Shown piece by piece: positions 375-58,465 of a stretch of 64,000 nt of DNA (the stretch's first letter is position 1; each line of letters begins with the position of its first letter). The notes under the pieces are model-generated. The model made no database searches. It saw nothing but the letters and a program-made list of their open reading frames with translations, and was not told where the DNA came from. The DNA is from Cinnamomum chago (lineage: Eukaryota; Streptophyta; Magnoliopsida; Laurales; Lauraceae), in assembly GCA_038049695.1 (NCBI GenBank), contig CP142461.1:29643001-29707000 (forward strand), written 5' to 3'. The position numbers and the translations under genes are program-made.

Positions 375-784
375 CTATATATATGGGGGATATTCTAGTA
401 CTTGAAACTTTTCCCAAAATGGGGAGTGTCTCTCACCCTATAGTGAGGGAATCCCTCACTTGAATATTACCCTATATATATATAGACACACATACATATA
501 TAATATTTACTATAAACCTTGACATATAATACGGAATTTCATGTTCATGGATTGGATGGCCGTATCTATATCTGTATTTTCAATCTAAAATGTGCATAGT
601 CATATCCCCAATCATTGTATCTGAGTCCCTATCTGTCATATATAGGCATCATTGCATCTGATAGCATATCCTTGGGGTACACCCACCCATGAAATGGCCC
701 ATGATAAGAAACGGTCCGGTTTACCAAACAGCAAAAAAGAATCTCTTTATACAACCATCGACAATAGCAATAATCTAAAGTTAC

Positions 785-3700
785 CTCTCTAAACACAACA
801 TGGAGATTGAAAGTGCCAATATCTAGTTCAAAGCTGCCATCTTCGAGCCTTGAAAGGTCTAAAACATCATTAATAAGTGTAGCTAAGAGGTTGCTACTCT
901 TTAACACGGTCTCTACCATCACTCGTTGCTCCGGAGACAGTTCAGTCTCTAGAAGAAGGGTGGACAAAGCAATGATTGCATGCATTGGAGTCCGCATTTC
1001 ATGATTCATAACTGCTAGGAAATCATTGCGAGCACAGATGGCCATTTCTGCTTCACGCCGGGCCAAATCTAACTGAACATTCTGCTTCATGAGCAGATCA
1101 CGGGCCTGCATAGACTCTTCTAAAATTGAAGCATGTGAAAGAGCAACAGCAACCTGCAATCGGGACAAGTTACCTTCAGTCGCATCTCACAAAGATTACA
1201 GAAATAACAATTTTGATAATATTGATACCATCTGAAAATCCATAATGATGACAAAAGGTTCCAAAATATGAATGTAAGCCACTTCTACTTATGGCATCAT
1301 TTGTCAGCAAGAACCAAACCATGTGGTCAAACCCAGAAATGAGACTATGTGGGTCACATCCATTTCCAATTGTCATTAAATTTTACTTGTTGGCAAGTTT
1401 TGTCTTCCTTCTCTCTTTCAAGGGCCCTTCTCTGATTTAGTTATCCTACAGAACAGACATTCATCTTTACTACTTTTTTTTTGGTGATGAGGGAAAGAGA
1501 TTCATCTTTTCTTCCCAAGTTGTTTCTTTGCATCCTCCCTTTCTACCAAAAGAAAGGGTCCCTTGGTGTATTGCCCTAGTTCCTGTCTATGACCATTGTT
1601 TTGGAAGTTCTCTCTATTTCCACATTCTTTTCTTCATCGCTTCCCCACTTTATTCTGTGTTAGAGGTTTCATTCAGTCGCTTAATGGAAATAGCCAAGAG
1701 GTGACAGTGTTCTGCCTATAGACAGAGGTAAAAATAAGAGATTACTAAAATTACATGTTGGTAAACTCTCTGCATAACCACTAACCGACAAGAAACTATG
1801 AAGTAAGCACTGGATTCATTCCCCCCAACCACCACACATGCAGCATATTTTTTATCTGATAAGTAACAAAATTTTCATTGATATAATAAAATTACAACCG
1901 TGTAAAAGCTATGCAGTATAAAAGGTGAGCCGGCCAGAACAGAAGGCTCACAACAGAAAAAAAAAAAAAAAAAGAAGAAGAAGAAGAAGAAAAAACCTGG
2001 TATGTTCAGATTGCTAGGTAGAAGAATAACACTAACTGGTGCAACTATGGAAAAAAATTAGGATGAATTTCCTTCCATTATTGTTAAAGGAGATTCTTTC
2101 TGTGCAATCAAGTGGCATATTCTATTCAGGATTATCAATGGAAATTTGCTAATGTCATCAAGGAAAAAAGGATGTTTCAACACTAGATGTAGTGAGGCCC
2201 ATGTATACTTTGAGGCACTAATGAGGATGATCATTTAGTTAAACAAGGAGCTCAATGCAGCATATGCCTTTTCTCGAGTGAGGATATTGAGGACGAGTGC
2301 TGTTTGTCAGATTTAAACCTCATAGCCTCATCTTCTGTTGTATCATTTCTTCTCAACTAACAAATTTTATCACCATTATCTCTCAACACACACACATCCT
2401 TCTCAATAGGTACATATACACCATGTCAAAAAGATGCACTGATCATAGTCTGATTGCTCGGTACTAAATATTGCTGAGATGTAACACAATAGAAAGAAAC
2501 ATATATTTGGGTTTGTTGACTGTTCTACAACAACAGTTGTCGTGGTACAACTGAAACAAGCAAAGACAACCTACACTAGACATGCATAATAAAAATGCTC
2601 CGACGAACACAGATAGCAATGCCAGAAAATTGGATCAGCAGTTGATCTCCAAAACCTAAGACACCAAAACATGCCCTTGACTAGAGTTGTTTAGCCAAAT
2701 AAGGTAAACACTAGTCAAAATTGCAACAGATGGATGAGCAAATCAGAGTCAGGCATAGATGCACGCTAACAGAAAAAACCAAGAATAATCTAATGGTAGG
2801 CAAACTATTGCAGAAAAAGGAAAAGGCAGGGCCTAGGCTGCTGTGGTCTATTTGAGGCCAATTCAAGTAAAAAGAGTGCAAAGGCATTCACAAAAGTCTT
2901 AAAAGGAGAACAAAAGAACTACCTGGTCAGCAACCACTTCAACAAGCTCCAATTCATGGACATGCCATTTTCTTGCACTGTTAGATGGGAGCATCAAAAC
3001 CATCACTGCAAATACTTTGGAAGATGCATCAGGCCAATCACTAGCTTGGAAATTTGAAAGATGTAAGAGTGGTACTCGCACAGCAACAACCTCCGGTGGC
3101 ACATATCTCCCTGAAAGGGGTCGAATCTTTGCCAATGGACACGTGTATGGAATTCTTATTGCACGGTTGCTATTGAAGATTTGATTAACCACAGAAAGCT
3201 GAATAGAGATGGTAGATCCAACAGGTATCTGGTGGCGTAGGGTGTAAGAAAGTTCGAGGTTCAAACCACTACGTGTTGGCATCCATAAAGCACACTCCTC
3301 CAAACCCAAAGTCCGACCCAGTTCTACAAGAGTAGTCTTCAATATAGTATGTCTGTCTAGCGTGCTTCTTATTTCATGGGTCAGCATTCTGACATGCCTG
3401 CCTGTTTCTTCTTGCGTACGGATGAGCCCCATCTCCCTATCAAGTTGTTCAGCCTTATTTTTTAGAAACAACTCCCGTGTTTTAACACTTAACAGATCAG
3501 GTATGATGTGAACAAGCATTAGAGCTGTGGCACAGGACACAATGGCAGTTGAGACTTTTGCAAGGGTCATTACCACTGCTACAGTTCTAGAATGCATAGT
3601 GAAAGTCCACAGGTTTATCAGGTGGGTCGCCCCACATAAAACAATAAATGCCCCAAATTGCATTAGCACCCATCTGTATGGGAAGAATGCAGATTTCTTT

Positions 3701-3828
3701 ACAAAATAAACAAGCTCAAGAGGAATGGAGAAATAAGCAAGGGCAATAAAGAAGTCCGACAGATACTGATATTTCACCAAAAGCTCATCAGCAGGCCACT
3801 GTGGCTCAATGCAGTTGCAGGACTCCAT
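785..3828 (-). CDS. ERS1: Subfamily-I ethylene receptor, ERS1-like (5' part)
   Basis: Ethylene receptor of the ER membrane; in the absence of hormone this family activates the CTR1 kinase. Coding exons are 3828-2923 (302 codons) and 1153-785 (residues 303-425), both phase 0 with GT-AG borders; the rest is off the left edge. Cys4 and Cys6 (dimer disulfides), three hydrophobic segments within about residues 20-110, and Cys65/His69 (copper and ethylene site) are present, followed by a GAF domain (about 150-310) and the histidine-kinase start with His353 in [11 protein letters not shown]. Start MESC plus the stretch around residues 220-255 ([15 protein letters not shown]) look more like ERS1 than ETR1. 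The two differ mainly by a receiver domain, which would lie outside the window, so the ERS1 name is likely but not proven. The intron at 1154-2922 shows only A-rich and GAA tracts. Confidence 0.95.
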
Positions 3829-6750
3829 CTTCCATAAACCACAAGAACCGGTTCCTAATTCCTACATTCTTGAAAATACAGGATAACAGTGGAAATCAGA
3901 ATCTTCATATAGAATAATTAAGTCAAAAGACTACAACGCGACTATATAAAAGATTATAATGCAACTATATAGTTCCTTAAGTTCTTGTGAGAATCAAATT
4001 GAATTTCAGATACAGAGTTTGGGATATGTGAAGGTTGCAATTCTTTAGATTAAGATTTATAAAGATGACAACCTACAATCCCTACAAATGCAATCATAAC
4101 TTGTTGCTTTCTTCAAAGCACAAATTTTGCAGAATATAGGAAAAGCTTGAAGTGCAGGTGTGCAGCACATCTGAAAAATACTACAGTGATGCAAGAACAG
4201 TTTTGCCTTCCAGGAAATGCAATGCCAATCAACTTGGACATCTCAACAGGATCTTGGTCAGCTGTAGTAAAAATAACAATGTCATCAGAATGGCACTAAG
4301 CTCATCATATACTCTCTCTGGCTTCAACAGTAACAATTTTTCGTTAAACATAGAACACAGTATGAGTGTCAATGGACAGTACATTACAAAAGACAAAGAA
4401 TGGGGCGAAAAAACCTCACGCAGCTGTGGGACCCAAACAAAACAGAGATCCACAATTGCACGCTGCAACTCAAAAATGAACAAAGCCCAAACCCAAGAAA
4501 GTTGTTCCCCAAAAAGGAGGGACAGACAAGTACAAGATAGTGGTATGGATATTAGATTCAAGCACACCTGGAGTGGCAAGGAGATACCTAATTCACTGGC
4601 CAATGAGCAGTTGATAGAGAAATGAAGTACATAGATCCATTATTGTAATTTTTCTTGTCTTCTCGGCCGTATCTTGGCTGTATAATTCTCCTTTAGTGAT
4701 TGCTTCTTTTCTATACTGTTCTTGCTTTCTTCGAATGAAATATCACCATTATTGATTTAAGAAAAAATATATTTTCTTATTGTCCATTTAATGACCTTAT
4801 ATCATACAGCTAGCAATATCCAATTGACCTTATTGTTTGCAGATAGACAGATCCCAAAGTCATATGGTATCTGATGGGACCAATGCACCCCACAATCACT
4901 ACAGCATGTCCTATTAGCAAAGGCAGGGTTGACTGTTGAGTACTGAGCATGCTGAATTGGTAGAGGATTTGCTGTAAGGGGGAAAAAACAGTTATGGTAG
5001 TTGACCCTTTCTAATCAGAAGGAGAGGAGAGGTAAGAAAAAACAAGAGGAAGGAGAGAAGGGGAGGAAAGAGGAGGAGGATGAACAGTAGGAGAAAAGGA
5101 GACAGATGACACCCAATATTTGTCCATAACAAATAATCTAACCACTATTTATCTGTATCGTATCAACTTCACTGGTCATATATTGGTCAATACAAGCAAT
5201 ATGGTCTAACAATGTTTGGCAATGGGCAGATTACAACCACTATACATCTATAGTAGGGACTGAAATCCTACTAGGCATCTCCACCACCATCCAGTCATGT
5301 CATAGATCAAACCCTTGATCTCTATAGGCCTAATGTGACAATAATGGTGATGACCATTAGCATTGATTTCTTCAACATCATCATCTCTGTCCACAGATGA
5401 ATGGACTCATTATGAGAAACCATGGCCTCCTACCTATCTCAGATAGAGAGAGTGGGAGAAAGAGGAAGATTATATGAAAGAAATAAAGTCCTTAGTCCAT
5501 ACAAATTAGGATTACAACTGAATCTGCACTCTTTACAAGCGCAAACATGTTAAGATTGGCCACACCAATTCAAACACCTTAAGATGGGCCACATAATATT
5601 GAGTTCAATTCAGCCTTTTGCTGGACACACTTGCATCACTAAAACTCAAAATTAAGTCTATAAGATTTAATGATTTAATGTGAAAATGGATGGGTTGGAG
5701 AGGTGAAAAGGTAGAAGATGACCTACAAAGGAGCATGGACACCAAAGACAATTAAATTTTTCCCACATATAGTGGGTTCTACTTTCTTAAGGGAGATGAT
5801 GACAAACTATTTACCATCGTGAAAGAGAGTTTTCAGCAGCACAATAATTCAACATTGATTTTATTCTCTGTGGAAAATTAAACTGAAGACTACATTTCCT
5901 ATGATTTTTGTTTCCATTGCTTGGTTCGCGGAAACGCTTTCCACGGTGAAATGTATTTCACCTCCTGTATATGACTGCAGAAAATGGTCCCTTCATCCTG
6001 GGTCCAGAGCTACTTTCCACACACACACACACACACACAAAAAAAAAAAAAAGGGTAAATACTTTCTTCTCAGCAAATGAAAATCATTCTCCCTTGAAAA
6101 GCAGATTGCATTTTCCACCGAAAATGCCAAACATACCCTAAGGGTGTGTTTAATACATCAAATTCAGAATAAAATCTCAGCAGGAAATATGGCTATTCAT
6201 CGCACTAGGCATTTGGGGCAACCCAGAAATGAGAAACCACATGCTTGATACTGATTTCTACCCTTTTTCTGCCCCCAATTCGTCATGATCCTATATCACA
6301 ACCATAAATTTGGGTTGAACAGAATAATGGGTCCCCAATTCCCCCATCCATTCTTGGGAAATACCCAAATCTAATGCGATTTAGAACATGACATGGCCAA
6401 ACACACCCAAATCCCTAGCACCCAAACCTCCCCAAACAAAATCAAAAGCAAATTACCAATCCTGATCCAAGAACAACAAAACCCAATCAGCAAAAATGAA
6501 AAATAGTAGATAAAAGAAGCATCTTTAGGGAATTTAAGTGAGCAATCATATCCATCAACCTTTGCAGTTAAAAGAAGCTTAAAGGACAGCTCAAAATCAA
6601 TTAAAGAAAAAAAATCTTACAGATACAGATACAGAGATGTTATCTTCCAAAGTGTAGAGAGAGTGAGAAGGAGGAAATCTTGGAAGAGGTATCAGGCTAT
6701 GATGAGAAATGAATGAGGAATCCGTGCAAGACCTGCGACTTCGTATTCTC
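3829..6750 (-). other. ERS1 leader: probable 5'UTR exon and 2.7-kb leader intron
   Basis: Upstream of the ATG at 3828 there is no further coding exon. On the minus strand a CT-rich leader-like stretch (about 6750-6622) ends in a good donor, TATCT followed by GTAAGAT at 6621/6620, and pyrimidine-rich acceptors occur about 25-45 nt before the ATG (for instance TATTTTCAAG). Subfamily-I ethylene receptors are known to have an intron in the 5' leader, so this fits. Transcription start not determined. A Tourist-like MITE at 6142-6408 lies in this intron. Open frames here on either strand have no recognisable product. Confidence 0.45.
6142..6408. mobile_element. Tourist-like MITE in ERS1 leader intron
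   Basis: A 267-bp non-coding segment starting GGGTGTGTTTAATACAT and ending ATGGCCAAACACACCC, so the outer 10 bp are perfect inverted repeats of the GGGTGTGTTT kind seen in Tourist/PIF-Harbinger MITEs. It is preceded by TAA; the base triplet after it is AAA, so the expected 3-bp target duplication is imperfect. A little further out on either side I see nothing else. Confidence 0.5.
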
Positions 6751-12612: not shown

Positions 12613-15600
12613 TCAAAAGACTTTCCTTCCTCTTTTTACGCTTTCTGGGAAGAGTTCATGGGCCCCCAGTAAAACTTCATGATGCATCCGTGCCCAAAGC
12701 TCTTCAAAAATATCATGATACTTATCTTGAAACCAACACAGAATCTCTGAATGCAATTCGTGTGGATTCTTGTTCCAGGCCTCTCTTAATGCATTCCGGC
12801 TATCAATCATCCTCAATCCCATCTTTAATTTATTTAACAAATTGCCGACCCGTCTCTGACCTGCTGCCTCAGGCTTCAAAATGCTAGCTGGTGGTGCAGC
12901 CATGAACTTCTTGGCAGATTTCATGCATGGTAACACTTTGCCTGCTAGCAAAGAGTATGCAAATGTGGACACCCGAAGCACATCATTCTTAATCGGCAAA
13001 CTATGCAATGGAAGCAGCCACAGATGCGGACCAAAAGTAGGGCTGACCCAACATAAGACTTGGTCCATTGAAGGATCGTAGTAAGGTTTTGGGTCTGTGA
13101 GTGGTGCTGAGAAACTGCACAGAGATTTAGCATATTTTACAAGCCACTCAGATTTGACACTAGTTACCCCATGCATGTATGGTCGTTTTGACTGAAGTAG
13201 CTCATTGTACACAAGAAATTCTGGTGCAGATTGAGAAACAGATGACCAGCGGTGAAGAAACACAGTTTCATTTACCATGCATGATTGATACCGAACTGCA
13301 TTAGCTTTCTTATCTTTATCTGGTAATTCTGACACTCTTCTGATGCGCATAGCAACCCTATCCGCCCAACCAGCACAGATTGCTTGCCCCAGAATCTCTT
13401 CTTCCATCAGTAAAAGGGGATGCTTATCAATGGGAGTCATCCAGGCATGTTCCACATCCTCAACATTTCCATGAGTCCATGAGAACTCCTGTTGTAACCC
13501 ACCTACAGCACTTTGATGAAATATCAGCCGAAGCAGCTGCTTTCTCAACTTGGACATCTCATCCATGGTTTTCAAATACAAAGAATTGTTTTTGCAAAAC
13601 TCCACAGAGTTTTCAGCAAGCTCAAATGCTTGCAAAGCATATGCTATGGTCAAAGCATCACTGCTAGGATTACAAAATTTCAAGCGAGCTTCTTTAGCCG
13701 CTGCTTTCAGTTTCTTCTGCCTCCGTTTTTCCTGCCGATCAAGAATCTTTTCACTACATATTCCAGCCTGCTTGAAACTGTTTTCACCTTGGCCATCACC
13801 AAAGTTGTCTGTACTTTCATTACATCCGCCAAACTGCATAATAAAAGGGCTGCTAAAACTCAAAGCTACAGCTACAGCAACCGTGTAGCCCAAAACCAAA
13901 TTTGCTCTAGCATAGCCTTGCTGACTCCTCATAATTTGAATGACTGTCAGCAACATACGAGAATGACGAGGGCTCATGGGATATTGTGCCATGGCCTTTC
14001 CAATTGGAGTAAGTCTCCCCTTGCTGTCAAGTGCTTCAAGAGCTTTCAAGCAACGTTCAGCTTCCACCAGTGCAGTAGTCTCTGGGGGAGTGGGAAAAGG
14101 GAAATTTGCAACCTGAAACATACACAATGTAAAAGTAAAGATTTAAAATATGCTCAAATGGAAAAGAAAATGACATCTACAACCATTCTCAAGAAGTTTG
14201 CTGATCTTTCATACATTTAAAAACCAGATCAGTTTCCTGGTGGCTGTATGTGTCAGCTGTTTATTGGGTGAATCTTGTACAAAATGAATGCCAGTTAAAA
14301 ATGCCAACGTTTCACATTGATGTGCTAGTCTGCTAGATTCATCCCGATAAGTGGATCTGAATGATTTTTTGGCTAGCTGACCTTTACTAAGCCCCAGCAG
14401 ATGCATTGCCTAAATATGGCATATTTAACATCTTTGTTGCCATAGGCAATGGCGGATGTTATCCAAATGAGTAATGGACATGTTTAACATAGTCACCATG
14501 TTGCAGTGGAGATCAATGTCATCTAGACAATGCCTGCGACAACAGTGTATGTGGGGAAACCAATGGGAGCAAATATTAGTTTTTATGCAAAATTTAGATA
14601 TACATTATGAAAATATAACTGACCTTGTCAATGCCCATGAACTTCATTACAAGGACAACACCGTCAACAGGAATCTTGGTTATTTCAGCACTAGAATATT
14701 CCAAAAAGATGTTATTGAAGACAGCAGAGGAATAGAGGCGGTAGCAATGGCCAGGCGAAGTTCTCCCGGCTCTTCCTGCACGTTGGGCAGCAGATGCCTT
14801 GCTTATCCATTGAACTTCATATGATGCCATCCCACTGGCACAGCTGTAGTTCTTGACCTTCTCTCTGCCTGTGTCAACAACATACTTTATTCCAGGGATG
14901 GTTAAAGAGGTCTCAGCCACATTGGTAGCAACTACGACAAGCCGCTCCCCTTCACATACGTCTTCGAATACACGGAGCTGGGCTGCTGCAGGTAACATAG
15001 CATAAAGAGGCAGGACACGTAATGTACCAGGACAACGACCATCAACTCCACATTTCTTCCCATCAATAGGAGACTTCTCTACACATCCATCCATACCTGG
15101 AGAAAGAGGACGTGACGTTTCTTCATGATTTGTATTTGATGTTTTATGAGTCAGAGCCTCAAAAGCAGCCTTTAATGAAACAAGGCTCTCAGAATTTCCC
15201 AGAACATCAACCACCATGTCAGTTTTCTCCCTGGTTTCAAGGCTAGAAGAATCTTCACTGTCACTGTCAATTTCCAATTCACTGTCAGTTGCTGACTCAG
15301 AGGAATAAGAATCTTTCTCGTGAGTATCAATCTCCTCATCACAAGAGCTTAACCTACCAGCATGCTGGTCATATGAGTGACCCTGAAACCCAAATGCTTC
15401 ATTGATATCCTTCATATCAGGCCCTTGATCAATGCAACCCACTTCTGCGACCAGATCAACACCATCATCTAATTTTTTTCTGGAGCTGTTTTTAATTAAC
15501 TGCTGTGAAGCCTTTCTTAGCTTCTTACACAAGTACTCCACCTCCCTTTGGCCAGTGACAAATACAAGTACACCTCCTGGTGGCAGCTTCTTGTGAATTA

Positions 15601-18600
15601 ACATAACCTTCCTATAAGCTTGGCCCATGTAGTCCACTATCTCTGTTCTCCTGGAGAAGTGAACAGTCACTGGAAATTGTCTGGTTGGGACCTCTATAAC
15701 TGGTGGAGGATCATGAAATAGCCTCCTATCTGAAACAAAGTCCTCAACTCGCAAGGTAGCACTCATAAGTATGAGCTTTAATTCAGTAACCATATTTTCT
15801 GGACTAATATGCATTCCTGAAAGTATCTTCTGTTGTTGCTCCATATATAATTTCTGCAATTCATGCACAGAATCACATCCCTTACAAAAAGAACAAATTA
15901 CGGAAAAGAAAAGTAAATCAAAGAAAGAATTAGCATCAGGTTCTCGGGAGAGGATATGGCAACTCATCTTTGGGAAGTATCATACAAAAGACCTAACGTC
16001 AAACAAGGGGAATGGGCACGCTGGATAGAACGCAATAAACTAGCCAAAAAAGATAGTGTACCTCCATCATGTGGGAGATATCACAAAGGAGCCACATGTA
16101 TTACAATCAGAATGATGAGAGAACATACATCCAGTGTAATCTACAGTGCTGATGCAGTACAGACCAGGTCCAAGAAGTCAGCTGGGTCAACCCATTGACC
16201 CATAGGTCAACCTGGTCCATTAGGTTCAGTCCACAAGCCCAATATTCACTGAGAGCTACAGTGGCAACCTATTTTTATCCTATTTCTATTTTCATTCCTT
16301 GTTTAATTAGAGACTATTTCTAATTTCTATTTCTTGTTTGATTAGGATTAGCTAAGTTTCGTATTTTATTTAGAAGGTCTTGTTTGCTAAGGAATAATTC
16401 TACCCTCTTTATATAGATGAGTCCCTCTTGTAATTGTTTATGCTTATTATCAATTAATCAAGATTCGAGAGTTTTTCTCTCCAATTGTGGTGTTTTTCCT
16501 TATCGTGAGTATTTCCCTGTTTGGAATCCCTTCCTTGGATTCGATCAACCCCATCTAAGGCGTTGGTCTACTTGGTCGCAGATCCGGTGCTGCACCAAGT
16601 GCATAGCCAATCACTGAAAGAAAACGACACCTACAATATGAACTTATCCATTACTTCTCCAACTTCACTGTACTGAATGTTACTAGTAAATGGTGCCTGT
16701 CAAATGGTAAGATTGTCCAACCAATGTGGATGTCTAAGCATGTAAAGGGGTTTTGAGAAGAAGTAGGGGTATAATGTTTTGTACAGGTCAAAAAGGCTAA
16801 CTGATGATCAATAAATTAGGAATGCTGCATGCAAGTCTGAGAATGGGCAAAAAAAAAAAAAATTTGATTAAAAGAAAGATGCGTGATAAATGAAGAAAGG
16901 GTACGACGGTTTCCTTCTATATATAGGATATACTGAACTGTGTGGGAACTATAGAACCATTAAATTTAAATTATGAGCCATATAATGCAGACTCTGCAAG
17001 ATAATAATAGAGCAACACATCATTTCTCTATTGTTCTTGATTCTCTGCTGAGTTTTGATTGTGCTGAGAATGGACTGTGCAGACCTTGTTTGGAAAAATT
17101 ATCTCAAGATTGTTACAATCTCACGAAAATGTCAGGATATTTTTCAAAATCACACGCGTGGGAGGGAGAGAGAGAGAGAGAGAGTAACCTTGCTTCTTCT
17201 CTTTTTTTGGTGGGGGGGGGGGGGCGGGGGAGGGGGGGGGGGCAGCGCTGACCCCACTCCATCCCCACTCCTAAATGAATTGGCACTTACCCCAATTTGA
17301 AACTCATTTGAAAAATATTCACTGCTGAATAGAAATTTCAATAAACTTCCATTAAAAAAACGTACTAATTTGATTCAGCAACAGAAAAATACAACAAATG
17401 GGAGAAACTTCATTTTGGAAAAACATTGAGCTTTGAGGTGATTTTGTCGAAGGTTATAAAATCTTGTAATTGGCATGCAATCATGCAGGCCCCACAAGGG
17501 TGTCCATAAATAAGCTATGCGTGGACCATACGCAGATGAAAGTCTCCCTACACATATAATTGATATATGACATGTATGAACTATGTCCACAAAACAAGAT
17601 TCGGTTTTTACCTGACGGATTTGAATGATCCGAGAAAGCATTCCAATAAGTATATCTGTATTCAAGCTCCTCTCATGAGCCTCATCCAGAATGATAATAG
17701 AGTACCGTTTTAATAAGAAATCACTCTGCACAACAACAGACTATGTCAACAGTGAAAGGATAATGTGGAATCAATAAAGATATAGATGTTTACAAGCTTC
17801 TAACCAGACAGAGTAAAAGATGTTAATCATGTGAACCACATGCACAGTATAAAAAGAGCCACAAACAAGACACGAACAACTTTCTTTACTTTTATTAATT
17901 ATAAATAAAAGTGGGACCAACTGAAAAATGAAAAGGTGTAATAGAATTTAAGATATCTGTATTGACCATCAATTCAAGACTCTTTAACTCTTCAAAGAAT
18001 GCTATAACTATGAGAGAAATAGCTAAGTGAGGGGTTTCAAAAAGAAAATATGAATAGAATATTAGTTTAGAAGTGAAGGGGGAAAAACGGGCCGATTGTT
18101 GAAATGTATCCAAAATTCCAAGTATAACTGCATTTAACTGGCACATACTCCCTGAAAGGATAAAAGAATACAATTGAAAAATAGATCATAGGCATTGAAC
18201 CTTGAATCAGATAAGAGCAACATTAAACAGGTAAGATTCAGGGAGTAGGAACCTGCACTTCTCGAAGCAAAATTCCGTCTGTCATAAACTTTATGGAGCA
18301 GTTCTCTCCAATCTTCTTGTCATGCCTGACCTGAAAACCAACCTCCCTCCCTAGATGAAACCCTAGCTCAAAGGCTACTCGCTTGGCAGTGGCAAGGACA
18401 GCAACACGCCTTGGTTGCGTTACACCAATGATTCCTTTTCTATCATTGCATTTGCCAGAAGCAAAACCAGCTTCATAAAGGAACTGCAGAATATCATTAA
18501 AAGAGAAAAAAAAATAAACATTATTTTAACTCTTGAGAAATCACACCCAATGTTAATTCAAGCTTAAAAAATATATAGAGCATCTAACAAGAACTCACCT

Positions 18601-29534: not shown

Positions 29535-30061
29535 GGCTCCATTGAGTTTACAGATTAAATCGTGAGAATGAACTTGGTTCGAGCCCTGCCTACCAAGAAA
29601 AAATCGCAGGCTAAATCCTGAATCATCACGATGGACTCGAGAGAAGTTACTTGGGATGGGTCAAAATTGGGCATATTATGCATCCAAACGACCATTTGAA
29701 TAACTACGGTAGGATCACCAAACCCATAGAAAATATATCATCTCATGGCTCACCCACGATGCTACCAATCAAACAGACGGTTCAGATGTCTCTATTCATT
29801 GGGCTTATAAAACCACCCCTATCTCCGCTCCCAAAAAGTACAGAAAAATCGCACACTCCCTCAAATCGGCTCCAGTGGCAACCCTCATATGCTTCTCTGA
29901 ACGTCCCCCTTAGGTCTACACCCCAAGCTTCTCTAAACACATGACCCCCGTTTGGCACTTTACGAGATAGGTAAAAGTCTAAAAACGCATCATTTTTTTC
30001 CAGACATGGGGTGTCACATCAATAACCCTTTAATTCAAAATTTATTCCATCTTTATAAAAA

Positions 30062-31993
30062 GGGAAAACAGCATAATACTTACATGTACTTTGGTAATTT
30101 TGCAGAGTACCCCACGTACTTTGGTATTTTATACTAAACCTACTTGTATTTTAAATCATAATGCAAGCAGAGACGGTTGTGACGGAAAATGTGGAATGAC
30201 GAATTTACCCTTTCAGATATAAGATGTCTCTTGCCTTTTTCTTTTTTCATTTTCCCCTTTGCCGGCTTGATTAAAACCCTAGCTACCCGATCTAAGTTCC
30301 GGTCCATCATTGACACCTACTGCTGCGATCTTGACGAGTTCAGCTCAGCCTCAGCAAGGAGACGGCGGCCATTCGCGATGGAAAGGATGAAAAGAGATAA
30401 GATTCTGGTGGTTAGTCTCGTAATTGATAGTTTTTTATGAATGGAGATGGCTATGGGGCCTACCTATGACTGATTCCCCTTATAGGTCTGAATGGCATAA
30501 GATGCCTAGGCACATATCCACCTTTGGTGATGGGGAAGATGGATCGAATGCAACATAGAGGTCAATGGCAGCTGGTGGGGATGAATATGGAGATGGCTTC
30601 GAGCCTTCATTGAACGATGGGAATACCAATCGAGACTAGCCACCAGCATCTTATCTCGCCGCCTCCCGCGCCGTCAAGGACCTCCCAGGCTCCCTCTAGA
30701 CCGATGCCTCCGTCGCCAAGGAGTCGTTCGAACAAGTGATCGATGACTTCAGCTGCTCCGTTTGGTGAGGAACAGTTGAGATCATCTCCCACGGCAAGGA
30801 CGCGTTCCGCTTCGCCGATCTCAACGACAGTGGCGACTCTAAAACACTCAATTATGTCTCCTCTGTCGTTGCCAGTCAGAGTTCAAAGCGGTATAACCGG
30901 TTTGAAGCGCATGTTGCTAGAATCCAGTATGATCCAGTGACGTACTGCGATGAGTCGAAGGACGTGGAGGATTACGGGAAGTGGAAATTAGGGTTTGTGT
31001 TGGAAGAGAAGGATGAGGAGATTGAGAATTTGAGTAGTGAGAATGGAACTATGGAAGCGATCTATGAGAAGCTTGTGCCAAGTGTTGTTGATCATGAAAC
31101 CTTCTGGACAGGGTCGGATATTGTTTTTCTGCCCTTTCATGCCCTGACTATTAGCAGGAACTAATTAATTGATACTGATTTGGTATGGAAGAGTTGGGTA
31201 TAGCTTCAACCAAACAGAGGCTTTTTCTGATTTCCACTTCCATTTTTTTTTTTGAATGATTGATTTCCATGTTACCCAAATGCTCAGAAAAATAAGTTAG
31301 ATTCTGTTATAACCACAGTTTTCAGAGGCATTTTAATTTCGAATGCATCATACATAAGACGAGTCTGGGACAAATGTTCTTTCTCTCCTTTGGGTCTCTT
31401 CTTCTTTCTCTCCTTAGGTTTTATTCTCTCCTTTGGGTCTCTTTTTCAAATGTTCTTTCCACCTCTTGTTCAGGGTTTTCTACATCAGCTCTGAACGCAC
31501 TTAAATGGGCATGAAGACAAGCACATGAAGCTTTTCTGCACGTAACATGAGAAACAAAGAAAATAAAATAGAGATGGGGAAACCTCCAAATCAATTAAGG
31601 AGATATGAGGAGAGAGGAGATGACCGGATATGGAAGCGCAGGGTGGAGCACAGGCCGGAGATTTTCTGGATCTGGCTAGAGAGAGGGAGTGCAGACGAAA
31701 AAGGGCGAGTTGTAGATCGATTAGGTTTAGAAATTTGGAAAGAGGGAAATGAGAAAAAAAAAACCGAGCCTTAAGATTTTTTCTCCCTAGGGGCAAATAA
31801 GTCTTTTTGGGTGAGTAATTTCACGCCAGTGTGCACCAGACACTATTTATATGACCTATGCCGTTAACACTCATAGAATTCGTGATTTTTGCATGTTAAT
31901 TAGAACGACATGTATGTTTAGTACAAAATACCAAAGTGCATGGGGTACTATGCAAAATGATCAGAGTCCAAGTAGATATTCTGCGGTTTTTCC
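30062..31993. mobile_element. Pack-MULE (Mutator-like) carrying a host gene fragment
   Basis: A 1932-bp element bounded by near-identical 9-bp target duplications, TTATAAAAA (30053-30061) and TTTTAAAAA (31994-32002). Ends are GGGAAAACAGC and, read inward, GGAAAAACCGC. The inverted repeats continue for over 100 bp (about 30062-30165 and 31888-31993), sharing AGTACCCCA, ACTTTGGTATTTT and TACTAAAC on both arms. Long inverted repeats with 9-bp duplications are the mark of Mutator-like elements. There is no transposase; instead the interior holds a piece of a BSD-domain gene, so it is of the Pack-MULE type. Confidence 0.75.
30638..31115 (+). pseudogene. BSD-domain protein gene fragment inside Pack-MULE
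   Basis: Intronless stretch resembling plant BSD-domain proteins (the relatives of At1g69030/At1g26300, function little known). Readable parts in one frame: KESFEQVIDDFSCSVW, a TGA at 30766-30768, then VEIISHGKDAF, SKRYNRFEAHVARIQYDP, TYCDESKDVEDYGKWKLGF, LEEKDEEIENL and IYEKLVPSVVDHETFW, the last being the start of the BSD domain. The frame breaks off after FWTGSD, where relatives continue with the conserved SRYFYRVYKL part, and there is a further stop before SFEQ. It lies wholly within the Mutator-like element and is best read as a captured, dead gene copy. The fragment at 30230-30420 may be part of the same capture but is not recognisable. Confidence 0.7.
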
Positions 31994-32711
31994 TTTTAAA
32001 AATAAAGTAAAAAACAACCTCCATTCTCCACTAAAAGATAGAAAATGTCTTCCCTTTTCAATATAAAAAGTAAAAAAGATTTCATAATAAACAACTAAAA
32101 ACAAAATATCATTATAACCTCATTATATTTTATTCTCTCTTAATTTGATACTTTACTACACTTTATTTTACATGAAAAATTACCAAACGGGCCCGGCATA
32201 AAAGTAATATAAAGCCTTCATTTTTTCATATAAGGGGTCAATTAAAAGTACACATCTTCAAAATTCCTTTCTACTTTTTAAAAAAAATAAGTATAAAAAA
32301 ATATATTCTCTTTACTAAATGACAAAAAAACACTCACTTTTTACATAAGAAGTCAAAAGAATTCCCTATCAATCCATTAAAGACAAAATACCATCTTATT
32401 TTTTATTCTCTCTTAATTTGATGAGTTACATTACTTTTATTTTAATAGTAAATTACCAAAATGGCCATTTTTTAAGACCAATATACTAAAGTGTGAAATT
32501 ACCAAAAATGGATATCACTCGTATTTTTCATACCTCGCCCAATTTTTCTCTACACTCTCCCACGCTAGCCACCACCGCCCTATCCGACAACACCACAAAG
32601 GGTAGAGGGATATGGAGACGAGGAGGGAGATGGATCGAGTGGAGGTAAGGATAGGGGGAAGAAGGGGAGTGAACTGAGAAGTAGTTTTTGGAGGGGTCTG
32701 GGTATTTTGGA

Positions 32712-39960: not shown

Positions 39961-42900
39961 TTTATCTATTGACAAAGGGTCATGCCTACTTGCCTAGTTT
40001 CCTGTCGAGTGGTTGCCTTGTTCTTGTCTTTATAGATGCATTTATTCCCACTTCTCTTCCTTATCATTGGGGTTTTGGTGAACCCCTGTCCCCCACCTGC
40101 CAAGCATAGTAAATAACAGAATCTCGACCTTCCTTCGTAAGTTGTCTCCTCCACTGCCTTTGGGCTTGAAAAGAGAGAATCATAGAGGAAATAATAATAA
40201 AAAATATTATAACAAAAAGCTAATTATTAAGTACTCGAATACTATTTTTCATATATAAAAGTCTCAATTTCATTAGAGAAAAAAGGGCTTTCTGTATTCC
40301 GGTGAAAATCTTTTCATTCCAATTTCTCTCTCTTTTTGAACAGTAACATTAAAGATGTATTAAAAAGAAAAAGGTAAACGCCACATGCACTTACAGGAGA
40401 GAGATACCCAACGAAAGGAATATATAAGTCCAATCTGTCAATACCAAACTAAAAACAAGAATTTTCAGGATCTTCTTTATTGGGATTTAAGTAGGGCTGT
40501 CAGAGGATCGGCTGCTCCAGGCCTTGTCCTATTGTCAAAATACGTGGGCCGATCAAAACCCTGTGAGGGCGTGTTATCTAGGCCCTTAGTCTATCATTGC
40601 GGGCCAAGCCATGAAAAAAAGATCAATTAAATTTTTTTTTTTCTTATCAGTAATGTCGAGTGTTAACTTACATCTAACTATTCTGAAAATATATATTGAA
40701 AATGTGATGACTTTATGAAATATGTATCAATATATGTTGACCAGTAGAGAAAACATATATCATATATATATATATATGACAGCAAGCCTAATTCAAGTGC
40801 TCTTGAATTTGATCTTATATGACAAGATAGAAAAGCTCTCTGTTTTGGCTTGCAGTTGAATGAAACTAGTGCGGAATGGAATGATTGTCGTTTGTGAATG
40901 TGGAGATGTGGTTATAGCTTTCGGATATTTGTCACGGTGCTCGTCTGCTCTTTGGCTACTTTCTTCTCCATTGCTTCATATGTAAGCGTTGCATTGTCTT
41001 ATGTGTATGTATTCCATCCTCTCTTGGGTTATTTGATTTTTCTCAAATTGCATAATGAGGCCGAAGTTTTGTCTCAGAATATTTTAGGACTTTAAAGTTG
41101 CCTTTACAGGACTTAAGTATCAGGAATCATGTGTTTAATTGACATTGATTTCCTAATGTTTCTAAGCAAAGGTAAATATATGCAAGGGTCATTAAATTGA
41201 GAGGGACAGGCCACGTTAGGCCTGGTATTGTCTTACCCGGGCTCTCAAATTGGAGGGCTGACAAAAATTGAGCTCTATCCTTTTCTTATGTGTTCTATGG
41301 TGTTAGGATTCTACTGGCCGTGGATTTTTATTTTTGCAGAGAGAGGAATCCGACATTCTTATCCCCTACATATAAAATCAAAATCCCTTTTTATTGATAA
41401 AATCGGCTCATTTTTATTTTTTTACTTTTCACGAGAAAAATGTGCCACACACACATGACGGAAAAAGGGGTTGAATGGAAAATTAGAGGTGTTACTTAAA
41501 TTCCTCTCCTCCCACAAACACACTTCAACTTGTTTGGCTACTTCACTAAGTAAGGTGGAGTAAAGTAAAGTCTCATTTCACCATACAAGAAAAGACTAGG
41601 GGTTATATCAAAAGTAAAATTTTTCAAGATTCCCTCATTGGTTTTTGAAAAAAAAAAGAGAATAAAAAATAATATTCTCATGCCACTAAAAGACAAAAAT
41701 TCATCTACTTTTTACCCAAGAATTAAAAAAAATTACTTATCAAGCCATTAAAGATAAATTTCAACGTACTATGATTAGACCCCTAATATTTTATTAGGTC
41801 TTTAATCTTCACTTTACTTCACCCTACAAATATTTCACTTCACCCTACAAGTATCTTTACAAAACAAGCCTTTTTTTTTTTTTCGTTTATAACTCATTTT
41901 GCAGGCCTTTCGAGGGCCACACCAGACACCCTTCATGTGGGCCCTTCCTACCCCCACAAACTGAGAGACTTTCAAACAGAACAAACCATTTCATCAGTCT
42001 CCAACACTCCCCCATGAACTGAAGGAATCTTCCTTAAAATCCAATTCCCATCTTTCAGTGCAACAAGGTCAGGTTGATGAGGTAATGCTTCCTTCCCCAC
42101 TCCGAGTAAGTCTTTATTTCGCATCTTTAGCTATGTTGAATGCTCTTAAAATTTAAGCTTAACTCATGTTCAATTCCTGTGGGTGATTTTTGTCCTTTTG
42201 CAAAACACAGTGTTCTTCCTTTTCCCATCTGGGTATCTCTTTTATTTTCTTCTCTTTCCTTATGTTTCGTGAAAAATCGCCACTTAATGTTATATATATA
42301 TATATTTATATTTTTGCATGCTTGATTTGCAGGTTTGTATTTTCGTTTTCTCTTGAGCATTGTTTTACTGTTGTATAAACTGGAAATGAGTTCATAATTT
42401 GATACCAATTAGAAGTCTGTAATTGAAGAAAATGAAAATGGAAGTGGGTTCACAACTTCAATACCATTGAAGTCTGTAATTGTAGAAATGGAAGTGGGTT
42501 TGCAATTGCAGTGTGGCCTTTTAATCTGTAATTGTATAAAATGGAAGTATGATTACTTCCCCTTTTTAATTGGTATGATGGAGATATATTTTGATTCAAT
42601 TCTTTGTTTTGGAACATAGAAGATAATGAAACTTAAAACATAAGCATTGTGTGGCTGTGTGTGAAATAGCATAGGTGTGTTCATAGTGGATATTCCACCT
42701 TCCACTGATTCACATGCATTGGAATCTTGGATGGATGGTCCTGTCCACTTATAATATTCTTTTGGATAGTTTTCTGTCCAATGCCCTATCCATTTTGTTG
42801 TAGCATTGTAGGTTACTGGAAGGATGTTGAGATCATCAAATTGGGTAGGTTTTTCCACTGGACAAACTGACCGGATGCCGGGCCAATATGCTACTTGGTG

Positions 42901-52529: not shown

Positions 52530-55500
52530 CTAAAAGTAATATTTCTTGAGGTGTGCAGCGTTCCACGGTCGCGGCAACTCCTTGCCGTTCATCCCTTCAA
52601 GTCTGTAGGCCGATCTTCCTGAGACTGAGACCACTTTGTAGGGGCCAAGCCAGTTTGGCGCAAGTTTACCTTCGTTAGGATCTTTATCAGCTGGGAGCGC
52701 TTTCTTCAAGACTAGTTCTCCAACCGAGAACCTTCTTTCTCTAACCTTCTTATTATATCCTCGGGACAGCTGCCGTTGATAGGCTGCCAGACGTACGGAC
52801 GCTGCTTCCCTTCGTTCCTCGGCCAGGTCGAGCTCTCTGGCGAGGTTTATTTCATTCTGCCCTTGATCAAAGAGGTTCGTCCTCAATGTTGGGAGGCCAA
52901 CTTCGAGAGGGATCACGGCCTCCATCCCATAGGCCAGTGAAAAAGGAGTCGCTGAAGTGGACCGCCTCGGAGTGGTTCTGTATGCCCAGAGGACACTTGA
53001 CAATTCTTCTACCCACCTGCCTTTAGCTTTATCGAGTCTCTTTTTGAGTCCATCCAGCACCACCTTGTTTGAGATTTCTGCCTGTCCGTTGCTCTGTGGG
53101 TAGGCCGGAGTCGCATAAAGGTTTCTGATAACGTGCTCCTGGCAGAAAGTTCTGAAGAGTTTTGAATCGAACTGGGTCTCGTTATCCGAGACCAGAGCCC
53201 TAGGGATCCCGAACCTTGTGATGATGTTTTTCCACACAAAATTCTTTGTGTCGTGTTCGGTGATGGAGGACAAGGCCTCTGCCTTTATCCATTTTGTGAA
53301 GTAATCAGTGCCCACCATTAACCACCTCTTGTTCCCTGGACTGCGGTGAAAAGGACCCACGATGTCCAGCCCCCACTGGGCGAAGGGCCACGGACTGGAG
53401 AGGGGACTCAGGTCCCGAGTTGGCTGATGCAGGGAATTGGAGAACTTCTGGCATTTCTCACACTTTCTGGCGTAGAGCTGGGCATCCTTCTGCATGTAGG
53501 GCCACCAGTAGCCCTGGCTAATAACTCTGTAAGCCAGTGACCTTCCCCCGATGTGGCTTCCACAGATTCCTTCGTGAATTTCAAAGAGGAAGTCCTCCAC
53601 TTTGCTCGGATGGACGCATTGGAGGTATGGTCCTGAATAGGATTTTCTGTAGAGCTTCTCGTTCGGTGATAGCCAGAAGTGAGCTGCTTTCATCCTAACC
53701 TTGTGAGCTTCAGTCTTGTCTTCGGGGAGCTTATCTTCTCTCAAGAATGTCACGATTGGGTCCATCCAGTTTGGACCGAGATCAGTGCACAAAACTTGCC
53801 GAACTGGGAGGGGCTCTATGCTCGGTCTTTCCAATGCCCCCACATCAACTGTCTTTCTCTTCCCAGCTTCTACGGCCGAGGCCAAGCTTGCTAGGGCGTC
53901 CGCATGGCGATTGGACTCCCTGCCGATCTGCCTGACTTCAACTTTTTCAAACTGGGAGAGGAGCTGCCTGGTGTGGGCTAGGTAGGCCATCATTCTTTCA
54001 TCTCTGGCCTGGTAATCTCCGCTCAGCTGACTCGTCACCAACTGGGAGTCACTGAAGACTACCACCCGGCGTGCCCCTAGTATTCTTGCACTACCGAGAC
54101 CAGCGATCAGTGCTTCGTATTCTGCTTCATTATTTGATGCCTTGAAGCCCAGGGTCAGTGCTTGCTCAATGACTAGTCCTTCTGGAGATTGAAGGACAAC
54201 GCCGGCGCCTGCTCTTCTGGTTGTTGACGATCCGTCAACGAAGACTTTCCAGGCTGACTTAAGGAATTTTTCCCACGACTGGTCTTCCTCGGTCTCGGTT
54301 TCAGTTTCATCATTGCTCTTGGGGTCCCCCAGTTCGGTATCGAGCGAGGTCGGTGCCGAACTAGGGGAGGTGAATTCGACGACGAAGTCTGCCAGGACCT
54401 GTGCCTTGATTGCCGTTCTGGGTTTATATTGGATATCGAACTGACCCAGTTCGACGGCCCATTTGGAGATGCGACCAGAAAAGTCCGCCTTGCGGAAGAG
54501 GGATTTGAGTGGGAATTCCGTGATGACCACCACCGTGTGCGTCTGGAAGTAATGGGAGAGCTTGCGAGAAGCGCTGATCAGTGCTAGTGCTAGCTTTTCA
54601 AGTGGCAGGTACCTGGTTTCAGCGTCGAGCAGGGTTTTGCTGGTGTAATAGATGGGATACTGCTGCTTGTCGCTTTCTCGAACCAGCACCGAGCTCACCG
54701 CATGGTCCGAGACTGCAAGGTAAAGATAGAGAAAATCGTCTTGCGACGGAGTAGACAAAAGGGGCGGTGAGGAGAGGTACCTTTTGAGCGCTTCCAGCGC
54801 CAGGTCGCATTCAGGAGTCCATTGAAACTTGGAACTTTTCTTCAGGATCTGAAAGAATGGCCGGCACTTGTCCGAGGCTCGGCTGATGAAGCGGTTGAGT
54901 GCAGCAGCCATTCCTGTGAGTCGCTGAACTTGCTTGGCCGAGGTGGGGCGCTGGATTGACTGGATGGCTGCAATCTGTTCGGGATTAGCCTCGATCCCTC
55001 GTCTGGTTACCAAGCTGCCCAGGAATTTGCCAGAACCGACGCCAAACGCACACTTGGAAGCATTTAGTTTGAGCTGGAACTCTCGGAGGATGGCAAATGT
55101 TTGGCGTAGGTTCGCCAGGTGGTTCTGCGACTCCTTGGACTTGACCACCATGTCATCAATATAGACCTCCATCGTCTTCCCGAGCTGGTTCTGGAACATT
55201 CTCGTGACCAGCCGCTGATACGTTGCCCCGGCATTCTTCAGTCCGAAGGGCATCACCTTATAACAGTAGATGCCTCGAGGCGTTATAAATGCAGTTTTTT
55301 CCTCATCAGGTCCTTGCAGCGGGATCTGATGGTAACCTCGGTAGGCGTCTAGGAAACTCATCATGTCATGTCCCGAGGTGGCGTCGATCATCTGATCGAT
55401 CTTTGGGGAGGGGGAAGCTGTCCTTGGGGCAAGCTTTGTTGAGGTCGGTGAAATCCACGCAGACCCTCCATTTGCCGCTCTTCTTCTTTACCACCACCGT

Positions 55501-55650
55501 GTTGGCGAGCCACTGGGGATAGTGCACCTCGCGGATCGCCCCAGCTTCGAGGAGCTTATCCACCACCTCTTCGATTACTGCCTCTGTCTGCGGGATCCCC
55601 GTTCTGCGAGCCTTCTGCACTATGGGCTTGTGTCCGGGATCCACATTCAA
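52530..55650 (-). mobile_element. Tat element pol: RT, RNase H, second RNase H-like, integrase
   Basis: Reverse transcriptase (about 55650-54750) has RVCVDFTDLNKACPKD, MPFGLKNAGATYQR and the catalytic YIDDM near 55160. The Ty3-type RNase H follows (about 54700-54350; TSKTLLDAETRYLPLEKLAL). The second, RNase H-like domain (about 54260-53870) shows VFVDGSSTTRRAGAG, NNEAEYEALIAGL and NRHADALASLAS. Integrase (about 53640-52700) has the zinc HHCC part (CEKCQKF), WPFAQWGLDIVGPF and LYATPAYPQSNGQAEISN. The region ends in WLGPYKV and PWNAAHLKKYYF. The domain order and the second RNase H domain are the grounds for the Tat assignment. Confidence 0.88.
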
Positions 55651-55899
55651 CTTGTGACACATGACCTTGGGGTCCACTCCTGGCATCTCATATGGAGTCC
55701 AGGCGAAGACATCCTTATTCAGAAGTAGGAAGTCTAGCAGCTCGGCCCTCTCGGTGTCGGGGAGCTGGCTACCTAGCATGAAGTAGCGCTCGGGGTCTGC
55801 AGGATTAATCCTGACCTCGGTGAGGTCCTCTATGCTTTTCTGCCCTGCTGTCCGCCCAACATCCTCAATCTCGGCTTCGAGCTCGGCCATATGCACTTG

Positions 55900-58433
55900 T
55901 CTCGGCTCCGTCTCCCCAGGTGTTATGGCTATGAGGCATTCTCGGGCCATCTGCTGATTTCCGCACACGGTCACAATCTCGAACGCCCCGTCAGGCGTTG
56001 CTAATGGAAACTTGAGTTTTTGATGTAAGGTGGAGGGCACGACTTCCATGGCATGCAGCCATCTTCGTCCCATGATCACATTGTAGGGAGATGGCGCGTC
56101 TACTACCATAAAGTCTGCCATCTTCGTTGCGCCTCCGATCCGGACTTCGAGTGAGATCCTGCCTTTGGGATATACTGGTTTGGCGCTGAACCCTATCAGA
56201 GGGACATGAGCCTCCTGTAGGTCGGATTCGGTTAGGCCAAGCTGCTTAAAACAGCTATAGTAGATGACCTTGGAGGAGCTCCCCGGATCCACGAGGACGC
56301 GCTTGGTAGTGTAATTGTTGAGCCGCAGGGTGAGGATGAGGGCGTCATTATGGGGGAGCTGGACTCCTCTTAGGTCCTCATCTGAAAACCAAATCTTAGG
56401 CCTCTCCCTCTTAGCCCTCTTCGGGGCGCTCTCCAGCTCTGCCGACATCACCTGCTTGCCATGGGCAGCCCTCCTGGCCTCTGACCGAGCTCGGATACTT
56501 TCTTTACTTGGGGAGGGGGCCAGGTGGATGACGTTGATGATACCTGCTGGTTCGTCGTCGTCCGGGCCATCATTGGGCGGAACGAGTTGCTGGGTTCGGT
56601 TAACCCTTTCTTCCTTCTTAACGTACTCTTGGAGGTGCCCGTCTTTGACGAGCCTCTCAAGGTGAGACTTCAGCGCAAAGCAGTCTTCGGTCATATGCCC
56701 GTGCTGCTTGTGATAGGAGCAGTTCTTTTGCTGGTCTCGGGTGGACGGGTCGCTCATCATCGGCCGCGGCCACTGGAAGTACGGTTCTGTCTTGATCTTG
56801 TTCAGGATTCTGTAAATGGGCTCCCTGAATACAACACTGATGGCTCTGTAGGAATCGCCGGCAGGCTTGTGGGGCTGGAACTTTGGTCTCTTGCTGTTAT
56901 CCGAGGAGATTGAGAGAGAGCGGGCGGGCTTCCTCTTATCCGACCTCGGTCTGGGGAATGTCCCTTCCCTGGTGGATGCCTGGTGCTTCTTTGGGAATCC
57001 GAACCGCTCTGTGCCATGGGCCTTGTCCTCCTCCTGTTCAATGTACTGCTTCACCCTTGCCATTAGTGCTTTCATCGTCGCCACAGGGTTCCGGACTAGG
57101 TCTCTGCGGAGTTCGTTTCCTGGGAGTAAGCCCTCCCAGAAGCACATGATGGCGATCTCGTCGTTGGCGTCGGTAATCTGACTGTATATTGTCCATAATC
57201 TCCTGGCGAAGGCAGTGATACTCTCACCGTCTTTCATCCGGATCGCCATAAGATTGCTACCCGTCTTCGGGATGACGCGGTGTGCTTGAAACTTTTCAAG
57301 GAAAGAGCTCCGGAGCTGCCGCCAGCTTGAGACCGATCCGGGGGGGGGGGGGGGAGCGCGCAGAACCACCGGAGGGGGAGGTCTCCCAGACTGGATGAGA
57401 AAACCCTGTAGTTCAAAAGACCGACGTCCCCCCAGACCGACATCCGCTGAGTGAAATGCCGTAGATGCGCCTCTGGGTCCGAGGCTTCGTCATAAAGGAC
57501 GAACCTCGGGACGTTAAATCTCTCAGGGAGAGAAATTTTTTTGATTTCCTGTGAAAAGGGGGACATGCCCTGATTGTCCTCTTCATGCTCATCAGCTAGG
57601 TCTCGGGCGAACCCGATCTCGGCCAAGCGGGCCTGGACCTCCTGTTTGACGTAATGATCCAACAACTCTTTGAAGTCCGCCCGGTCATCTGGTCTCTGTG
57701 GTTCTGGCTCGCGCCGCGATCCCCCGAGGCCACTGGGCAGATGACTGCTGCTGGAGCCCTCCTCCTCACAGTGGTATCTTCTTCTGCTGTCGAGGAGCTG
57801 CCTCAGGTCTCGGTTGTCCGGGTGGGCCCGCTGTCGCCGGGGAGGTGGACTACGAGACTTTCTCTCATTTATCTCGAGTCGTTCCTCGAGGCGACGAATC
57901 ACCTCGTCTTTATCTTGGAGGGCCTGGTGCTGGGCATTGAGCTCTTTGAGCAGGGGGTTGTCGCTCCTGGCTCCATGGGTTTGATGGAAGGACTGGCCGT
58001 CGTTGAGGACGCGCTGGTGGGACTGTCGGGACCCCGTCCCGACGGGGGTCTTGCCTCGTCGTCGAAGACCCGCCGTGGAGGCGTTTTGCTGAGGACCCTC
58101 GTGTGGCCGCTCACCAATGTGGCGAGGAGTCTCACGATGGCTATCTTGGCGGAGGCGCGTGGTTATGGGCCGAGACGAAGAAGCCGACTGGACGATGCCC
58201 TCTACGTGCGCGGCACTCGACTTTATCCCTGACCTCCTCTGACGCGAGGTCCCCGATGGCTCCTGCCCGACGGGGGGGATCTCGGTTGGCCCCGGAGGGG
58301 GAAACAGAGCAGAGTGAAGGCCAGGGGGTGGTTCCGGAAATGGTGGAAATGCAGGTTGCTCCTGTAGCGGGAAGGACGATGCTTTTTGGGACTTCGAAGG
58401 CCCTCCACCACCGTGTCTGGTCTTTGGAGGCAT
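55900..58433 (-). mobile_element. Tat element gag and protease region
   Basis: The gag start (MPPKTRHGGGGPSK) is followed by a Pro/Arg-rich part and the retrotransposon gag core (about 57560-56900): FNVPRFVLYDEASDPEAHLR, FLEKFQAHRVIPKTGSNL, SITAFARRLWTIYSQITDAN and CFWEGLLPGNELRRDLV. A CxxH-type remnant (CSYHKQHGHMTEDC, near 56700) precedes the protease (about 56400-56000), with LVDPGSSSKVIYYSCF around the usual aspartate site and YNVIMGRRWLHAMEVVPS downstream. A run of G bases lies near 57337-57350. Confidence 0.85.
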
Positions 58434-58465
58434 GCTTCAGTAGAGGTTTTGACACAGATCATATT

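Follow-up and report, generated by a model that had tools for sequence, protein, structure and literature searches.

The stretch of DNA analysed here (the window) comprises 64,000 nucleotides of C11 of the 1.06-Gb Cinnamomum chago genome (C11:29643001-29707000) and it carries, at positions 30062-31993, a 1932-bp element with a single terminal inverted repeat at each end. The 5' repeat extends from 30062 to 30166 on the plus strand and the 3' repeat from 31889 to 31993 on the minus strand, and inside the flanking duplications these 105-bp arms are 78% identical. An earlier note on this DNA had claimed more than 100 bp of inverted terminal repeat and our alignments substantiated this claim. When 30001-30320 was locally aligned with the reverse complement of 31701-32060, the arms gave a score of 103 across an ungapped 109 bp; scores peaked at 35 among 200 dinucleotide shuffles and at 29 among 242 pairs drawn at random from the first 46 kb. 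The element is flanked by the putative target-site duplications TTATAAAAA (30053-30061) and TTTTAAAAA (31994-32002), which match at 8 of 9 positions, so that they had rightly been called near-identical. Both 9-mers are AT-rich and of low complexity and, taken alone, they constitute moderate evidence, since 15 of 272 mismatched flank pairs likewise reached 8/9. After removal of the element, the joined flanks aligned through the junction to 32199-32466 (plus strand; 285 columns, 68% identity, E 1.5e-29). This segment is an element-free sister copy of the target repeat and represents a related empty site at a distance of 200 bp. When we searched the 1932 bp for a transposase gene, no open reading frame of at least 150 codons was found.

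The interior of the element is a chimera. The 5' arm is followed by a subterminal backbone (30167-30255, plus strand), which is common to elements with and without BSD cargo, and the family match stops at about element position 197-199 (window 30258-30260). The first part of a captured BSD gene (FAGLIKTLATRS...SKETAAIRD) occupies 30256-30378 on the plus strand, contains a 1-bp frameshift and is 89% identical to an intact gene on C10. A 278-bp insert (30379-30656, plus strand) separates it from the second part (30657-31108, plus strand; 86% identity to the C10 gene), which involves a 9-bp deletion, two in-frame stops and a truncated BSD domain (Pfam E 9e-10, profile positions 1-43 of 58). The 3' backbone (31111-31888, plus strand) completes the element. 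The captured parts are richer in GC (51-54%) than the arms (31-36%) and the flanks (33-40%). These data confirm that a stop-bearing BSD-domain piece is present, as had been proposed, but its left boundary, previously placed at 30638, had to be corrected: the real start is 30256, the piece is larger than had been stated and it consists of two parts, with 30379-30656 being an insert that is absent from the gene.

To identify the source of this piece, we searched the genome with the 228-bp BSD core and obtained seven matches (seven of seven candidates scored). These were the window element, four other elements (L032 at C4:57.28M, L035 at C4:58.42M, L033 at C1:94.67M and L060 at C4:4.26M), the intact gene at C10:56.008M and one paralogue of the latter (C11:6.895M, 76%). 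The C10 gene involves a single open frame of 455 codons from the first methionine (Pfam BSD E 1.1e-15) and with 89% identity over the BSD core it is the closest intact gene, and the closest match to the source. Element positions 195-317 and 596-1047 (575 bases) match the adjoining positions 1145-1268 and 1269-1729 of L052 (585 bases), which belong to the C10 gene. Since the two parts are adjacent in the gene at L052 1268/1269, the captured piece is one contiguous stretch that was split by the insert. On either side it is bordered by backbone (5' and 3') that occurs BSD-free in other elements, and a comparison of the element ends with the 4.2-kb region surrounding the C10 gene gave no match better than E 0.096. 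A literature search for a Pack-MULE together with a BSD domain retrieved no paper.

Continuity of BSD gene sequence beyond the arms, which had been named as an observation that would speak against a capture, was not seen, and the coding matches of the C10 gene in the window were confined to the two captured parts. Comparison of the whole window with the 4.2-kb C10 locus yielded additional matches at 32232-32409 and 41561-41759 (71-73%). We take these to be a dispersed AT-rich repeat that hosts the element rather than gene continuity: it is found upstream of the C10 gene yet downstream of the element, and again at 41.6 kb. The same AT-rich repeat was observed around the element, upstream of the C10 gene (L058, about 720-940), beside L067 (2908-3062) and at the two window positions mentioned above. 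The family may favour this repeat as target, or the repeat may simply be common.

Each of the six aligned copies of the chimera contains the insert, always at the same position of the gene, with L060 lacking its last 19 bases or so, and it is absent from the C10 gene and from its paralogue. Genome search with the insert gave eight matches (eight of eight candidates scored) and all of them were located in family elements, namely in the six aligned copies and in L034 (C6) and L067 (C8), which match only its first 189 or so bases. We considered the insert as an intron or as a second captured gene and rejected both options, its genome matches all lying within family elements. Inside the insert we found a 27-bp inverted repeat, the left arm of which (30394-30420, plus strand) is 93% complementary to the right arm (30631-30657, minus strand), and the right arm extends to the border of the second BSD part. 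We interpret the insert as probable repair filler that arose by template switching.

The ends of the element recur throughout the genome. A 21-base end motif gave, with up to two mismatches allowed, 437 genome matches versus four for the reversed control, and a search with the 5' end, which the earlier note had recommended for finding other members of the family, returned 40 scored matches of 429 candidates. Twenty longer loci were retrieved for comparison with the window element. Most of them share a common backbone that consists of element positions 1-197 and about 1728-1932, and the interior is variable. Those family elements that were measured are mostly 1.2-1.9 kb long and carry long inverted ends and duplications of about 9 bp. 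The 5' arm of the window element is 85-91% identical to the 5' arms of seven other elements. In all eight elements compared, the identity between the 5' and the 3' end varied between 78 and 87%, with the window element being the lowest, and unequal ends are a family trait. L038 and L043, which are free of BSD sequence, contain element positions 1-197 and 1050-1257 (the latter corresponding to window 31111-31318), and here 361 and 286 bases, respectively, replace the BSD piece; these replacements did not match the window element. Further 3' parts are common to L040, L039 and the window element. Extra copies of the ends were seen near one end of L039, L048 and L069, which may be compared with the multiple-TIR MULEs of tomato. 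Six 5'-end matches in the same orientation (L008, L017, L018, L022, L023, L024) fall within 420 kb of C5 (15.21-15.63M) and this cluster probably represents local segmental duplicates.

For quantification of the flanking duplications we used 17 elements (15 of the 20 fetched loci, L060 and the window element) and 272 mismatched flank pairs from different elements as control. With the ends fixed, a duplication of 8-9/9 was present in 14 of the 17 elements (nine exact) and in 15 of the 272 control pairs (one exact); a good duplication was missing in L034, L038 and L041. When a displacement of at most 3 bp was permitted at the ends, the corresponding numbers were 15 of 17 (11 exact) and 45 of 272 (five exact). 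In an earlier set, to which L035 and L060 were later added (16 elements examined, of which 15, namely 14 of the 20 fetched loci and the window element, had both ends assigned), the same displacement gave nine exact duplications of 9 or 10 bp, 8/9 or its equivalent in the window element, L034, L039 and L042, 7/9 in L038 and none in L041. A failure of flanks and arms to recur in other copies, which had been put forward as grounds for refutation, did therefore not come true. We are highly confident that a Mutator-like transposon of the Pack-MULE type, non-autonomous and decayed, occupies 30062-31993, and the original proposal of a Pack-MULE with a captured BSD-domain fragment is supported by the ends, the duplications, the recurrence of the family and the intact gene elsewhere. 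That a chance inverted repeat surrounds a BSD pseudogene, with no transposon involved, has a practically negligible probability: the low complexity of the flanking 9-mers would be compatible with it, but the shuffle control, the hundreds of end copies, the excess of duplications over mismatched pairs and the related empty site all argue against it, and the recurrence of complete copies refutes it.

Eight sites of the genome hold the chimera in whole or in part, five of them (including the window element) with the BSD core and three in cut-down form. The BSD piece occurs together with the ends at the distinct sites L032, L033, L035, L036 and L060. Two sub-lineages can be distinguished. The window element groups with L032, L033, L035 and L060, in the latter four of which the initial 34 bases of the captured piece are missing; L036 groups with L034 and L067, and these three lack the second BSD part except for 28 bases in L036. 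L034 and L067 keep a portion of the insert along with the first BSD part, so that later deletion or replacement is needed to account for the missing second part, and L067 has no recognisable 5' end. L034 (C6:25137200-25144300) additionally contains about 3.16 kb that are absent from its close relative L067, the break showing an overlap of 5 bp, and this extra sequence is probably a nested insertion. The right junction of the captured piece is common to five of the six aligned copies and is lost in L036. For phylogenetic analysis of the captured segment we included the window element, L032, L033, L035, L060, the C10 gene and its paralogue, and left out L036, which lacks the core. Here, the five core copies grouped against the gene and its paralogue with a support of 100 (200 bootstraps), and the C10 gene was placed on a short branch (0.015).

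The copies have decayed since they separated. Private changes in the six copies were distributed over the first, second and third codon positions as 39/33/35, and 74 of the 107 were C>T or G>A. Such a C-to-T bias together with an even use of codon positions would be expected of methylated, untranslated DNA, and all six copies carry a frameshift, a stop or a large deletion in the gene frame. Because the core copies group with full bootstrap support and decay neutrally with a C-to-T bias, the chimera appears to go back to a single capture that was followed by transposition. Repeated, independent capture of the BSD piece by different elements is highly improbable. Seven other elements hold some of the piece and the two sub-lineages differ in its first part, as repeated capture would allow, but the insert occupies the same gene position in the six aligned copies, five of them share the right junction, and the grouping of the core copies points in the same direction. 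Almost as improbable is a retrocopy of the BSD gene (a processed pseudogene) that landed in an ordinary MULE, the piece having passed through RNA. The captured piece does lack introns, as the term intronless in the earlier note had implied, and this would suit a retrocopy; it is uninformative on an RNA or a DNA route, however, because the C10 coding region itself is one open frame without intron, so that intron loss would be invisible either way. Moreover, the piece begins and ends within the coding region, and inspection of the alignments by eye revealed neither a poly-A tract at the 3' junction nor a duplication flanking the piece.

The changes common to all copies bear on the question of which gene copy was the donor. 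Counting only sites covered by four or more copies, 13 of 16 such changes affected the third codon position (Fisher p 0.0005 versus private changes), and those that could be placed on the side of the copies did so in 7 of 7 cases. With a looser criterion (sites where the paralogue decides the side), the corresponding values were 11 of 16 (p 0.011) and 8 of 9 (p 0.0015). This lean towards third positions suggests that the split between the C10 gene and the copies probably proceeded partly under coding constraint, with a gene copy that is now diverged or lost as the likeliest source, the counts being small and the core coming from one sub-lineage. The captured sequence would then probably derive from a copy of the C10 gene that had diverged but still functioned, and not from the C10 gene in its present form. 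There is a realistic minor chance that the C10 gene was the direct source and that the third-position excess reflects mutation bias or chance: among intact genes it shows the closest match (89% over the core) and it sits on the short branch, third positions are richer in G+C (139 versus 116 and 88), and the excess varies with the criterion. Against this reading, private changes of the same sequence lack a third-position excess (35 of 107), and the changes on the copies' side are almost exclusively third-position by either criterion. We regard it as improbable that the coding constraint acted on the first BSD copy before its spread, or on a lost functional source copy, in such a way that the ancestral Pack-MULE may once have carried a working BSD frame. 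If this were true, the record would be that of the life and death of a transposon-borne gene, not of a fragment that was dead from the start.

As for the mechanism, capture may have occurred by copying of gene DNA into a break inside the element (gap filling with template switching). At the right break GTCGG follows immediately in the gene and four bases further on in the element, and at the left break at most 2-3 nucleotides match. This slight microhomology fits gap filling guided by short similarity without proving it. Movement would have relied on the transposase of an autonomous relative, and methylation and silencing would be predicted for the inserted copies, with no protein being made from the BSD piece. 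MULE transposase domains (Pfam PF10551) are plentiful in the genome (150 scored of 3015 candidates), and none was located within 10 kb of an end motif among the matches listed, both lists being partial and compared by eye. L069, a 4-kb element, was considered as transposase partner and discarded; it carries a PPR piece instead.

Other cargo was detected on the same ends. We found an SRR1-domain piece in L049 (Pfam E 1.6e-32) and in L045, the two being 88% alike over 1.6 kb, and this cargo is present in three element copies and in one relative on C6. PPR repeats were identified in L069 (Pfam E 9.3e-33). Since the same ends carry SRR1 and PPR pieces, the family has captured genes repeatedly. L041 and L050, which over 1.7 kb are 84% alike, share an open frame that we presume to be SMXL/Clp-N-like; a Pfam scan of this frame gave no supporting match. 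In one scan of eight reading frames, only SRR1 scored above its Pfam cut-off. L049 (C1:11.459M) keeps an open SRR1 frame of 284 codons from stop to stop, and the C6 relative (L070, C6:75272300-75274700), which lies outside the family, is broken by 396 extra bases. Of the two, the copy on the transposon may be the more complete. An explanation of the SRR1 cargo as an intron-less capture was rejected, since the 396 extra bases lack GT and AG at the break and resemble an inserted repeat.

Tomato, rice and other plants are known to harbour multi-copy Pack-MULE families with AT-rich duplications and parental genes (PMC3310237, PMC8903248, PMC13317346). Like the Pack-MULEs of rice, maize, Arabidopsis and tomato, the family described here involves long inverted ends, duplications of about 9 bp, a gene fragment, no visible transposase, several copies and an intact parental gene elsewhere. 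It differs from them in its less similar ends (78-87% in the eight elements), and the 78% of the window element is just under the 80% used in the tomato screen of PMC3310237. Additional differences are the 278-bp insert, containing a 27-bp inverted repeat, that splits the captured piece, and the fact that an autonomous partner for these ends was not found among the transposase matches listed. The tomato family PM-ZIBP is likewise a multi-copy Pack-MULE family with one gene fragment, and it has AT-rich duplications in the rows seen of PMC3310237. In that family the ends are tandem in 13 PM-ZIBP copies and single in one, whereas the window element has single ends and its relatives L039, L048 and L069 have extra copies. 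Pack-TIRs that were explained by gap filling or FoSTeST resemble our element in having gene DNA inside, little microhomology and movement in the multi-copy cases, but PMC8277862 deals with animal cases and calls the applicability of its models to plant Pack-MULEs worth exploring. The window element adds to the known Pack-MULE kind and nothing in it departs from that kind.

This Pack-MULE is well resolved. Its capture junctions are defined, the closest gene and a BSD-free backbone have been identified, and both a related empty site and several daughter copies are available, so that the order and the mechanism of capture can be tested in Cinnamomum chago. Elsewhere, positions 52530-58436 of the window contain what we take to be the GC-rich reading frames of a Ty3-type LTR retrotransposon. 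On the minus strand, frames that presumably resemble an ethylene receptor and a DEAH-box helicase are located at 629-3861 and 12613-15979, respectively.
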